The notes under the pieces are model-generated. The model did not search any database. It had not been told where the DNA came from and worked only from the letters and a program-made list of their open reading frames with translations. The translations under genes and the position numbers were made by a program. Below are positions 24,202 through 29,874 of a DNA stretch of 64,000 bases, one piece after another (positions within the stretch are counted from its first letter, which is position 1; each line of letters begins with the position of its first letter). The DNA comes from Acinetobacter sp. WCHA55 (GTDB lineage: Bacteria > Pseudomonadota > Gammaproteobacteria > Pseudomonadales > Moraxellaceae), in the NCBI RefSeq assembly GCF_002165305.2, contig NZ_CP032286.1:2976001-3040000 (forward strand), given 5' to 3'.

Positions 24202-24810
24202 ATGAAGAATCCTGAGATCCAAGTCCGTCGTAGACCGCGCCAGTCGCGAGCTAAACTCACCCAAGAAGCTTTGCAAGAAAGTTTTGTTCGGCTTTTGCAT
24301 GAGCGTCATGCGCACGAAATCACCATTCGGGAAATTACCGACGTGGCCGGTGTTGGTTTAGGTACCTTTTATGAGTACTTTTCCAAGAAGGAAGATTTGG
24401 TTGCATTGACCATTCACCAGCATGTGAAAACTAATGCAGAGCAACTAAAAAGTTATGCACAAAGCCTGATGAAGTTATCCACAAAATTAACTTTTGAAGA
24501 CTATTTACAACAAATTATTCACTTTCAGCTCAAACAGATTCAGACTCGACAGTTTCTCTGGGCGCAGACTTTTTTGCTGGAACGACAGGTGTCGAATATT
24601 GAAAGCTATCGAAAGAGTTATGAAATGATGGTGCAAATGTGGCGCAGTATCCTTGAGCCTTATGTTGATGATGCAAAGCAACTCCAGCAATTGAGTTTAA
24701 ATGTACAGCGGATATGTTATGGCTTTGTGTCGCAGACTTTACTGGTCGAGCCTGAATTTGGGGAGTGGGAGGATTTAAATAAAGAGATTATTTTTTTCTT
24801 AATGAGCTAA
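24202..24810 (+). CDS. TetR-family transcriptional regulator
   Basis: The 202-residue protein begins with a basic arm (RRRPRQSRAKLTQEAL). The TetR helix-turn-helix follows at about residues 20-65 (ITIREITDVAGVGLGTFYEYFSKKEDL, quoted in part), then a helical ligand domain. It is divergent from the AidB-like dehydrogenase gene across a 78-bp gap that would contain both promoters, which suggests direct control of that gene in response to a fatty-acyl or related ligand. Confidence 0.9.
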   Translation: MKNPEIQVRRRPRQSRAKLTQEALQESFVRLLHERHAHEITIREITDVAGVGLGTFYEYFSKKEDLVALTIHQHVKTNAEQLKSYAQSLMKLSTKLTFEDYLQQIIHFQLKQIQTRQFLWAQTFLLERQVSNIESYRKSYEMMVQMWRSILEPYVDDAKQLQQLSLNVQRICYGFVSQTLLVEPEFGEWEDLNKEIIFFLMS

Positions 24811-24858
24811 CTCCAAGCTAATTTTATTTTAATTCCATATTACTTTAAAATTTTTTAT

Positions 24859-25785
24859 CTATACTTTCTTTTTCAATAGACTTTTTGCGGGCAAAATTTC
24901 CATTGTAAGCATTTCTTTGAGGGTATAGTAAGTATGCTTAGAATTGGATTTTTCAGGACGTGGATTTAATGGTAAATCAATAGTTTCATGTTGAGACAGA
25001 ATATATACTCGCATCTCATCTACTTTTATGCGTCCATCTTTTTCATGTATGACAAAATGATCATTAACATAGCAACGAATACGCTCAATAATAGCTACAT
25101 CTAAATCAAAATTTTCTAATTCTTGCAATGTATCACTAAGATTTAGGATTATGGTTTCATCAACTTTATATAATTTCTCCATCTGACCACCACCAGATGC
25201 ACGGAATGCCATAAATAATGCATCTTTATAAGAATAGTCATTACTATTAGGGCATACATAAATATGATGTTTTTTTATTAAATCTATAGTTTTTCCTGCG
25301 GGAATTGATAATACTTCCTCTTCATAAAATTTCATACTTTTCTCCCCGTTTATTAAAAAATCTATATATTGTTTTAAAACTATATCTTTATTAAATAGTT
25401 TTTTATCTTCTAAACACAAGTTAATTATTTGGTTCCATGAGATATTTAAAATATTTTTATCACGACTTAATTTTATATATTTTGTAAGTAAAACACCTAC
25501 ACATTGATAACCTTTTAAAATATTATCTTTTTCATTCTTCAAATAGTGAATAATCTGAGCATCTATAGCCCTTGCATTATGGTTAGCTGAAATACTTTTA
25601 GCTTCTATTAAAATAGCAAGAAATGGTTTATCTTCAACCTTAATCCGAATTAATACATCTGCTCTTTTACCATCTGTTAAAATTCTTTCTGCTTCTACTA
25701 TAATAGATGAGGCTTTATTTATTTTGGAAATCAATTCTGGCACACTTCTTTTCACAACATACTTAATAAGTTTATCTCTGTACAC
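24859..25785 (-). pseudogene. PD-(D/E)XK nuclease-like gene, 3' fragment cut by ISAba1
   Basis: This is the main part of a gene interrupted by ISAba1. The reading frame enters from the IS inverted repeat with a GTG at 25785 and true gene sequence starts at 25775. The core shows RADVLIRI, then FLAILIEAK (aspartate, then E-x-K 18 and 20 residues later), the pattern of a PD-(D/E)XK nuclease fold. An alternating helix/strand region and a basic C-terminus follow. Composition is much richer in A/T than the flanking genes, suggesting acquisition. With the 5' piece beyond the IS, the original protein had about 352 residues. I do not recognise the exact family. A role in defence or DNA processing is possible but unproven. 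Confidence 0.75.
25767..25775. repeat. Left target-site duplication of ISAba1
   Basis: TAAGTTTAT directly abuts the left inverted repeat and occurs again at 26956-26964 next to the right end. A 9-bp duplication is the normal size for ISAba1. Confidence 0.95.
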
Positions 25786-25807
25786 GACAAAAATAGATAA
25801 CTCATTG

Positions 25808-25835
25808 AAATAATGTCACAATAATTGTTTTCTAA
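25808..25835 (-). promoter_or_regulatory. ISAba1 outward promoter
   Basis: On the minus strand TTAGAA (25830-25835) and TTATTT (25808-25813) are spaced by 16 bp. These are the elements reported for the ISAba1 promoter that drives neighbouring genes such as ampC or blaOXA. Here it points out of the left end into the 3' fragment of the broken nuclease-like gene. Confidence 0.85.
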
Positions 25836-25846
25836 CGACGAATACT

Positions 25847-26416
25847 ATGACACATCTCAATGAGTTATATCTTATCTTAAACAAATCTCTAAAATGGAAC
25901 AAGTCACATTTAAAGTGCTTTGCGCTCATCATGCTTGTGATTATTTTAAAGCAAACATGTAATCTTTCTTCTGCATCTAAAGCCTTGCCCATCAAGTGTT
26001 TACCACAATCATTTTATCGACGTATGCAGCGCTTCTTTGCAGGTCAGTATTTTGATTATCGTCAAATTTCTCAGTTGATTTTCAATATGTTTTCATTCGA
26101 CCAAGTGCAACTGACTTTAGATAGAACCAATTGGAAATGGGGAAAACGAAATATTAATATCCTGATGCTCGCAATCGTTTATCGTGGAATAGCGATACCT
26201 ATCCTTTGGACATTGCTTAATAAACGTGGAAATTCAGATACGAAAGAGCGTATTGCTTTGATTCAACGCTTTATAGCCATTTTTGGTAAAGACCGTATTG
26301 TGAATGTGTTCGCAGACAGAGAGTTTATCGGTGAGCAGTGGTTTACATGGTTAATTGAACAAGACATCAACTTCTGCATTCGTGTTAAAAAAACTTCATT
26401 GTCACCAATCATTTAG
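25847..26416 (+). CDS. ISAba1 transposase, first frame (OrfA)
   Basis: This 189-residue frame carries the N-terminal part of the IS4-type transposase with the first two catalytic aspartates, D92 in LTLDRTNW and D157 in NVFADREF. It ends in SLSPII shortly after a run of seven A (26387-26393), where a -1 slip would join it to the second frame. Without the slip the product lacks the catalytic glutamate. Confidence 0.93.
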   Translation: MTHLNELYLILNKSLKWNKSHLKCFALIMLVIILKQTCNLSSASKALPIKCLPQSFYRRMQRFFAGQYFDYRQISQLIFNMFSFDQVQLTLDRTNWKWGKRNINILMLAIVYRGIAIPILWTLLNKRGNSDTKERIALIQRFIAIFGKDRIVNVFADREFIGEQWFTWLIEQDINFCIRVKKTSLSPII

Positions 26417-26937
26417 GAAAGAATCATAAAATTAGTGATTTATTTCGCCATCTTAAAGTTGGTCAAATTGAATGTCGTAAACGACGGATTTTGGTTGGTC
26501 GGGTGAAACTATATATAAGTGCACTACAGTTAGAAAATGGAGAGCTTTTACTCGTCGTTTCTCCTCAGTTTAATGCCAATGCTATTCAGGATTATGCATT
26601 ACGCTGGGAAATTGAAACCTTATTCAGTTGTCTCAAAGGACGCGGGTTTAATCTTGAAAATACGCGCTTGACAGACCCTAGACGAGTGAAAAAATTGATT
26701 GCGGTGTTAGCTATAAGCTTCTGTTGGTGTTACTTAACGGGTGAATGGCAACATAATCAAAAAAAAGCGATAAAAATAAAGAAGCATGGACGACTCTCAA
26801 TGAGTTTATTTCGCTATGGTTTAGACTATGTTCAAATGGCGATTCAGCGTTTAATTGGTTTTGGGAAAAAAGAAGAGTTTAAGGAAATTTTGGCAATTTT
26901 AAGAAAGCAGAATCCTGATAGGATAAGGGTTCTGTGA
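26389..26937 (+). CDS. ISAba1 transposase, second frame (OrfB), probably made by -1 frameshift
   Basis: The frame is open from about 26389 and joins the first frame at the A7 run. It encodes NFIVTNHLGKNHKISDLF onward and the IS4 signature Y-(2)-R-(3)-E-(6)-K in YALRWEIETLFSCLK, which carries the catalytic glutamate. The first internal ATG/GTG-type starts are well inside (for example 26491), so independent translation would give a truncated product. Confidence 0.88.
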   Translation, partial: KNFIVTNHLGKNHKISDLFRHLKVGQIECRKRRILVGRVKLYISALQLENGELLLVVSPQFNANAIQDYALRWEIETLFSCLKGRGFNLENTRLTDPRRVKKLIAVLAISFCWCYLTGEWQHNQKKAIKIKKHGRLSMSLFRYGLDYVQMAIQRLIGFGKKEEFKEILAILRKQNPDRIRVL

Positions 26938-26955
26938 AATTTGTCGTGTACAGAG

Positions 26956-26964
26956 TAAGTTTAT
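26956..26964. repeat. Right target-site duplication of ISAba1
   Basis: TAAGTTTAT, identical to 25767-25775, immediately right of the element. Confidence 0.95.
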
Positions 26965-27106
26965 TTAAAAAATATTGATTTTTTGCTAGTACATATGCCA
27001 AACCTTTTGTTTGTTTAGTTTCTTTATCACCAGAAATTAGATCAAACAATGATGATTCTATTTTAGTTTTATCCTCCGAATTATAGAGCCTAAAATAAGT
27101 CTTCAT
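26956..27106 (-). pseudogene. PD-(D/E)XK nuclease-like gene, 5' fragment cut by ISAba1
   Basis: The first 50 codons start at an ATG at 27106 (MKTYFRLYNSEDKTKIESS and onwards to YFLNKL). If ISAba1 and one 9-bp repeat are removed, the frame passes without a break into IKYVVKRSVPELISK of the 3' fragment, giving FLNKLIKYVVKR. The piece itself would read on into the IS for about 25 foreign residues. Base composition is as A/T-rich as the 3' fragment. Confidence 0.85.
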
Positions 27107-27204
27107 CTTAATACATACATTCCAAAACCTTAACTAAAAGCGTTAATAGAAAAATTATACACATGATTTTCAATAAAATTTTTAATTAACACTTTTAGTA
27201 TAAT

Positions 27205-27232
27205 AAAAAACCGCCCTTATGGGCAGTTTTTT
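27205..27232. terminator. Terminator between the broken gene and katG
   Basis: AAAAAACCGCCC pairs with GGGCAGTTTTTT (one mismatch) around TTAT. It serves katG on the minus strand and could act in both directions. Confidence 0.7.
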
Positions 27233-27244
27233 ATTTCAATCAAC

Positions 27245-29874
<2,630 letters not shown>

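Follow-up and report, generated by a model that had tools for sequence, protein, structure and literature searches.

An ISAba1 insertion divides a gene between tetR and katG

In a 64,000-nucleotide stretch of the Acinetobacter sp. WCHA55 genome (contig NZ_CP032286.1; hereafter the window, in whose positions coordinates are given), a gene for a predicted two-domain protein with an N-terminal PD-(D/E)XK nuclease domain is split by a copy of the insertion sequence (IS) ISAba1. The features of the gene and of the element are as follows.

24859..25773, minus strand: 3' piece of the split gene, residues 49-352 and stop codon
25348..25773, minus strand: part of the PD-(D/E)XK domain on the 3' piece, residues 49-190
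25657-25659, 25603-25605 and 25597-25599, minus strand: D87, E105 and K107, respectively, on the 3' piece, which also bears Q121 and Y125
24895..25323, minus strand: C-terminal PUA-superfamily-like domain, residues 199-341, putative modified-base reader
24859..25785, minus strand: 308-aa open frame with a GTG start inside the left ISAba1 end, without the first 48 residues
25767..25775: left copy of the 9-bp target-site duplication TAAGTTTAT, abutting the IS end exactly
25776..26955, plus strand: ISAba1, 1180 bp
25847..26416, plus strand: first open frame of the ISAba1 transposase
26491..26937, plus strand: second open frame of the ISAba1 transposase
26956..26964: right copy of the 9-bp duplication, abutting the IS end exactly
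26957..27106, minus strand: 5' piece of the split gene, residues 1-50, with E29 of the active-site helix (27020-27022) and Q32

The element was identified as ISAba1 by its length, its inverted repeats (17 of 20 bases match between the two ends), the 9-bp duplication and its identity to annotated copies. With its flanks it was 99.1-99.7% identical to eight listed plasmid records, six of which have an annotated ISAba1 under the match. The duplicated sequence occurs elsewhere in the window once per strand (62904 and 51293). Twelve ISAba1 matches were found in the genome; eight of these are full-length, identical and on the main contig, suggesting recent activity of the element in this genome.

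The two pieces were searched separately and never joined, with the natural uninterrupted homolog P0003 (352 aa) serving as whole-protein reference and as the source of residue numbers. The 5' piece encodes 50 aa identical to residues 1-50 of P0003 and was found in the genome by the family profile at E 2.1e-18, whilst the 304 aa of the 3' piece match residues 49-352 at 99%. By coordinates the pieces lie in one frame, with codon starts at 26956 (from the ATG at 27106) and at the equivalent repeat base 25767. A first-pass annotation had proposed from the letters of the window that an 1180-bp ISAba1 with 9-bp repeats splits a gene for a protein of about 352 residues without change of frame, and each part of this proposal is confirmed by the features of the insertion, the codon arithmetic and the coverage of both pieces by P0003. 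Its description of the gene as markedly A/T-rich also holds, the 3' piece having a GC content of 27.9% and the window one of 42.3%. Equally low values were seen in 4 of 631 sliding windows, and the printed low-GC window starts (24701-25201) all overlap the split gene.

The N-terminal domain is a PD-(D/E)XK nuclease

A search with the 3' piece yielded 66 homologs, 51 of them 334-364 aa in length. Searching with the C-terminal region added five further homologs (P0069-P0073), whose N-termini look alike by eye and which were left out of the family scans. In the alignment of the 66 homologs, E29 (63/63), D87, E105 and K107 (65/65 each), A106, and Q121 and Y125 (65/65 each) were invariant wherever letters were present, and W161, S204, A207 and R239 were invariant in all 66. 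An E/D/ExK and QxxxY layout is also that of type I HsdR and RecB-family nucleases. The D...ExK motif with its supporting acidic residue is accompanied by similarity of both fold and profile to known members, which identifies residues 1-190 as a PD-(D/E)XK nuclease domain. The assignment of D87, E105 and K107 to such a motif in the first-pass annotation is therefore borne out, the structure prediction showing the nuclease fold whose absence would have refuted it.

Pfam models (E<=0.1) of HSDR_N_2, PDDEXK_9 and PDDEXK_4 matched 11, 8 and 7 of the 66 homologs, respectively; unrelated Pfam families matched at most 6 members, with E values down to 0.0011. One homolog, P0010, carries a precomputed PF13588 assignment. 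Weak matches to PDC-S26 of PADLOC were found in four homologs (best 1.1e-5) and to EcoAI HsdR of NCBIfam in two (best 1.8e-4), and the sole match in profile searches of the PDB was the restriction endonuclease 9wuf (E 0.46-0.8). Searched singly, P0003 had no significant match in Pfam, PADLOC or NCBIfam, neither piece had one in these libraries or PHROGs, and the 3' piece matched no PDB sequence. The homolog family has no name in the libraries searched, and a literature search confined to an open library found no paper naming it.

Chains 2vld and 5gke of NucS/EndoMS were among the best structural matches of the nuclease-domain model, as would be expected of a DNA-repair nuclease sensing damaged bases or mismatches. 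Such a role is nevertheless extremely unlikely given the patchiness of the family: the 3' piece matched its own genome alone among 149 genomes of the genus, the family profile matched its own genome and gave one weak, partial 26-bit match among 369 genomes of the class, and one homolog lies in a cassette-like array (see below).

The C-terminal domain is PUA-like and shared with a PLD nuclease

Structure prediction gave a confident two-domain model in which the folds nearest to residues 199-341 were ASCH, the EVE domain of VcaM4I and YTH. This fold evidence gives moderate support for a PUA-superfamily domain, within which S204, A207 and R239 are the invariant positions; in the 66-homolog alignment, no Trp occupies an invariant or nearly invariant column of this domain. 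Neither EVE (PF01878) nor ASCH (PF04266) nor any SRA model was among the 24 Pfam families listed for the 66 homologs. Comparison by hhalign gave Prob 0.4% for EVE and Prob 0.1% for ASCH, the latter against 10 sequences that include some weak ASCH matches. The EVE profile had no match in the WCHA55 genome, and the sole ASCH match there falls outside the window. Structures of PvuRts1I and AbaSI were absent among the fold matches listed, which does not exclude a relation to them.

In plasmids, the only match of the 3' piece was to the C-terminal part of a PLD protein, P0074, from Psychrobacillus glaciei plasmid pPB01 (E 3e-11, 30%); a second query, P0072, found none. The C-domain profile scored 102 bits on P0074 at 194-327 whereas the N-domain profile scored nothing there, the N-terminal domain of P0074 being PLDc_2/RE_NgoFVII. 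One further relative of P0074, P0075, was found. Because two unrelated nucleases share it, the C-terminal domain is best read as their targeting part. The "stand-alone nuclease" of the first-pass annotation is thus not upheld, as the C-terminal 40% of the protein forms a separate PUA-like domain that is also present on a PLD nuclease. An open literature search on NgoFVII together with the EVE domain returned no paper.

These observations also bear on the nature of the substrate. Nucleases with the ExK and QxxxY signature are mainly DNA-cleaving, and the other partner of the C-terminal domain is an NgoFVII restriction-type nuclease, both of which make it quite unlikely that the substrate is RNA or modified RNA, as it might be for an abortive-infection effector whose PUA-like domain binds tRNA or mRNA. 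What favours an RNA substrate is the presence of ASCH and YTH among the nearest folds and the general association of the PUA superfamily with RNA, as described in a survey that covers it (PMC7641849).

Some homologs occur amid restriction or defence genes

Eight loci with uninterrupted homologs were obtained from the genome collection by a one-pattern scan (38 pattern matches, 8 confirmed). Scans of their neighbours covered 18 proteins; those at L002 and L003, and other neighbours at L004 and L005, lay outside this set. Three of the eight loci (L007, L008 and L009) place the homolog amid restriction or defence genes. At L008 the conserved part of the homolog is preceded, at a distance of 44 bp, by the end of a gene whose HNH product matches a type IV model (E 9.3e-9); two further HNH genes are close by. 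At L009 two C5-methyltransferases are encoded 1.3 kb away on the opposite strand, and a type IIG enzyme, Vsr and DUF2357/PDDEXK_7 are nearby. The L007 homolog (Flavobacterium frigoris) is followed by genes for a WYL regulator and for Dru- and Dpd-like helicases, and that at L006 by one for a Schlafen-type helicase. No defence family was found for the one L005 and two L004 neighbours scanned, and those at L004 had no Pfam match. The latter would suit a mobile gene with a role other than defence, whose nuclease fold is incidental, but conservation of the catalytic set and the restriction or defence neighbours at L007-L009 and on pPB01 leave this reading little probability. The same neighbours support the candidate defence role suggested in the first-pass annotation.

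P0074 (L032:1489-2490) is itself encoded between genes for a C5-methyltransferase and a BglII-like endonuclease. This arrangement, like the methyltransferases and type IIG enzyme near the L009 homolog, would be expected if the C-terminal domain were a sequence-recognition module, as in NgoFVII-type PLD enzymes, and the split gene encoded an orphan restriction endonuclease reading DNA sequence rather than modification. That alternative is unlikely. The neighbours of the split gene are tetR and katG, with no methyltransferase beside it as in Type II restriction-modification, and cleavage at unprotected sites would make a sequence-specific enzyme harmful to its host. Moreover, a screen for C5-type methyltransferase motifs was positive at one of the eight loci (L009), although it overlooked the type IIG enzyme at that locus and had less than 5 kb of sequence at two of the loci. 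The C5-methyltransferase genes near the L009 homolog and on pPB01 also argue against a general reader of 5-methylcytosine (5mC).

Evidence of mobility came from two loci in different genera. The L003 homolog (Winogradskyella litoriviva) lies within an array of 10 copies of a 43-nt repeat, and a 1064-bp block bearing the homolog (L003:126-1189) is 92% identical to L004:1584-2647 (Labilibaculum) between different flanks. The shared block begins inside GTTAGCA and ends at TGCTAA, which we take to resemble integron cassette core sites. Given this block in two genera, with such ends, at least one transfer of the family in the form of a gene cassette is probable. No cassette-type site was seen in the flanks of the gene in the window. 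No relatives were found in phage records, and none of 232 pattern matches in IMG/VR was confirmed as a relative.

A probable modification-dependent restriction endonuclease

Taken together, these data make a single-protein modification-dependent (type IV) restriction endonuclease the probable product of the uninterrupted gene, which would have been acquired horizontally and inactivated here by ISAba1. The predicted two-domain architecture fits that of type IV enzymes. The C-terminal PUA-like domain would recognize a modified base in incoming phage or plasmid DNA, probably by flipping it out, and the N-terminal PD-(D/E)XK domain would then cut nearby. The gene would have entered a cargo-accepting interval between tetR and katG by horizontal transfer and then been inactivated by the ISAba1 insertion. 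The NucS/EndoMS matches, the RNA-associated folds, the methyltransferase genes at L009 and on pPB01, and the L004 neighbours without a Pfam match are the observations that favour the alternatives considered above.

The architecture is already known in kind, with the unnamed family and its unclassified PUA-like reader as the new elements. The closest working analogues are PvuRts1I and AbaSI, single proteins with an N-terminal PD-(D/E)XK domain and a C-terminal PUA-superfamily reader; in PvuRts1I the nuclease is described as followed by an SRA reader (PMC12707154). Their readers are SRA-like, and the nearest folds among the matches listed here are ASCH, EVE and YTH. A role in modification-dependent restriction has been predicted for fusions of EVE with PD(D/E)XK and with PLDc (Bell, Wolf and Koonin 2020; PMC7641849). 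The same two nuclease classes are each joined to a PUA-superfamily reader here, although the present reader escapes EVE and ASCH profiles. VcaM4I, an HNH enzyme with an N-terminal reader, is reported to flip 5mC or 5-hydroxymethylcytosine into a pocket of P24, W82 and Y130 (PMC7897488); it differs from the present family in nuclease, in reader position and in the invariant S204, A207 and R239 found here. CMoRE / PD-T4-3 is likewise described as a one-protein defence with an N-terminal nuclease and a C-terminal modification sensor (PMC12923530), but its nuclease is GIY-YIG and its reader is called a distinct fold by its authors. It matched the C-terminal domain in Foldseek at no better than E 0.60. 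P0074 shares the C-terminal domain itself and differs in its PLD catalytic domain.

A more tentative possibility, which we consider doubtful, is that the C-terminal domain represents a separate class of PUA-superfamily reader beside SRA, EVE, YTH and ASCH. Such a class would have been exchanged between PD-(D/E)XK and PLD nucleases, would occur sporadically in distant phyla and, in at least one case, in an integron-type cassette, and would read a phage DNA modification outside those of known type IV readers. The gene adds a family without a library name to the likely one-protein type IV restriction enzymes. Profile libraries miss its reader, so such genes tend toward annotation as hypothetical, and a reader common to two unrelated nucleases makes modification specificity directly testable with natural homologs.

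The ISAba1 insertion leaves E29 and Q32 on one piece and the D/ExK core on the other, which most likely abolishes nuclease activity in this strain. The left end of the element faces the 3' piece, and the 308-aa frame begins within that end. For an ISAba1 insertion in adeS, production of a truncated protein is described, driven by Pout close to the left repeat (PMC3498117). By analogy with this precedent, and given the frame starting inside the IS, a truncated product retaining the reader may be expressed here from the ISAba1 outward promoter.

The tetR-katG interval takes variable cargo

The borders of the interval and one further feature are as follows.

24202..24810, plus strand: tetR-family gene (Pfam TetR_N), left border of the variable interval
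27245..29449, minus strand: katG (NCBIfam catalase/peroxidase HPI), right border, upstream of the split gene on its strand
27204..27233: GC hairpin with a T-run on both strands, between katG and the split gene, read from the sequence

These positions confirm the placement of the split gene between a TetR gene and katG in the first-pass annotation. tetR and katG share one contig in 12 other genomes, from which 11 intervals (<=8.7 kb) were fetched, G019 being left out. All 11 (loci L071-L081) carry other open frames in the interval (window 24811-27244); none is empty and none has a frame resembling the 3' piece. The interval thus takes variable cargo in the genus, of which the split gene is one item. 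Translated comparison gave approximately eight groups, with content shared in three pairs and otherwise short similarities. Contents include a transporter/LysR pair in two genomes and a VgrG gene with companions in one. Of the intact and empty states of this locus that the earlier annotation suggested looking for in relatives, an empty site was found in 0 of 11 intervals; an uninterrupted form exists as the protein P0003. Low GC, presence in one of the genus genomes and the variable interval support the earlier view that the gene looks acquired, and it probably arrived by horizontal transfer.

At L078:950-9063, a 1160-aa VgrG gene is followed by AT-rich small genes and a Rhs-like end, as read by eye; from its gene content this looks like a type VI secretion cargo module.

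The hairpin at 27204..27233 is, from its sequence, a probable katG terminator. It was absent from the output of a consensus terminator scan, and the promoter and terminator scan was uninformative (12 promoter-like sites against 12.7 expected, 1 terminator-like site against 1.1 expected). Alteration of katG expression by an IS insertion upstream of it was considered and ruled out, as the IS sits downstream of katG. The tetR and katG stretches (window 24202-28240) had no near match in PLSDB, including its 3.97-Mb A. baumannii record, so the window may come from a species other than A. baumannii in spite of the many ISAba1 copies and a plasmid-like contig of 372 kb. Of that contig, a 15-kb part is 99.9-100% identical to Acinetobacter plasmids in the six best of 244 records.
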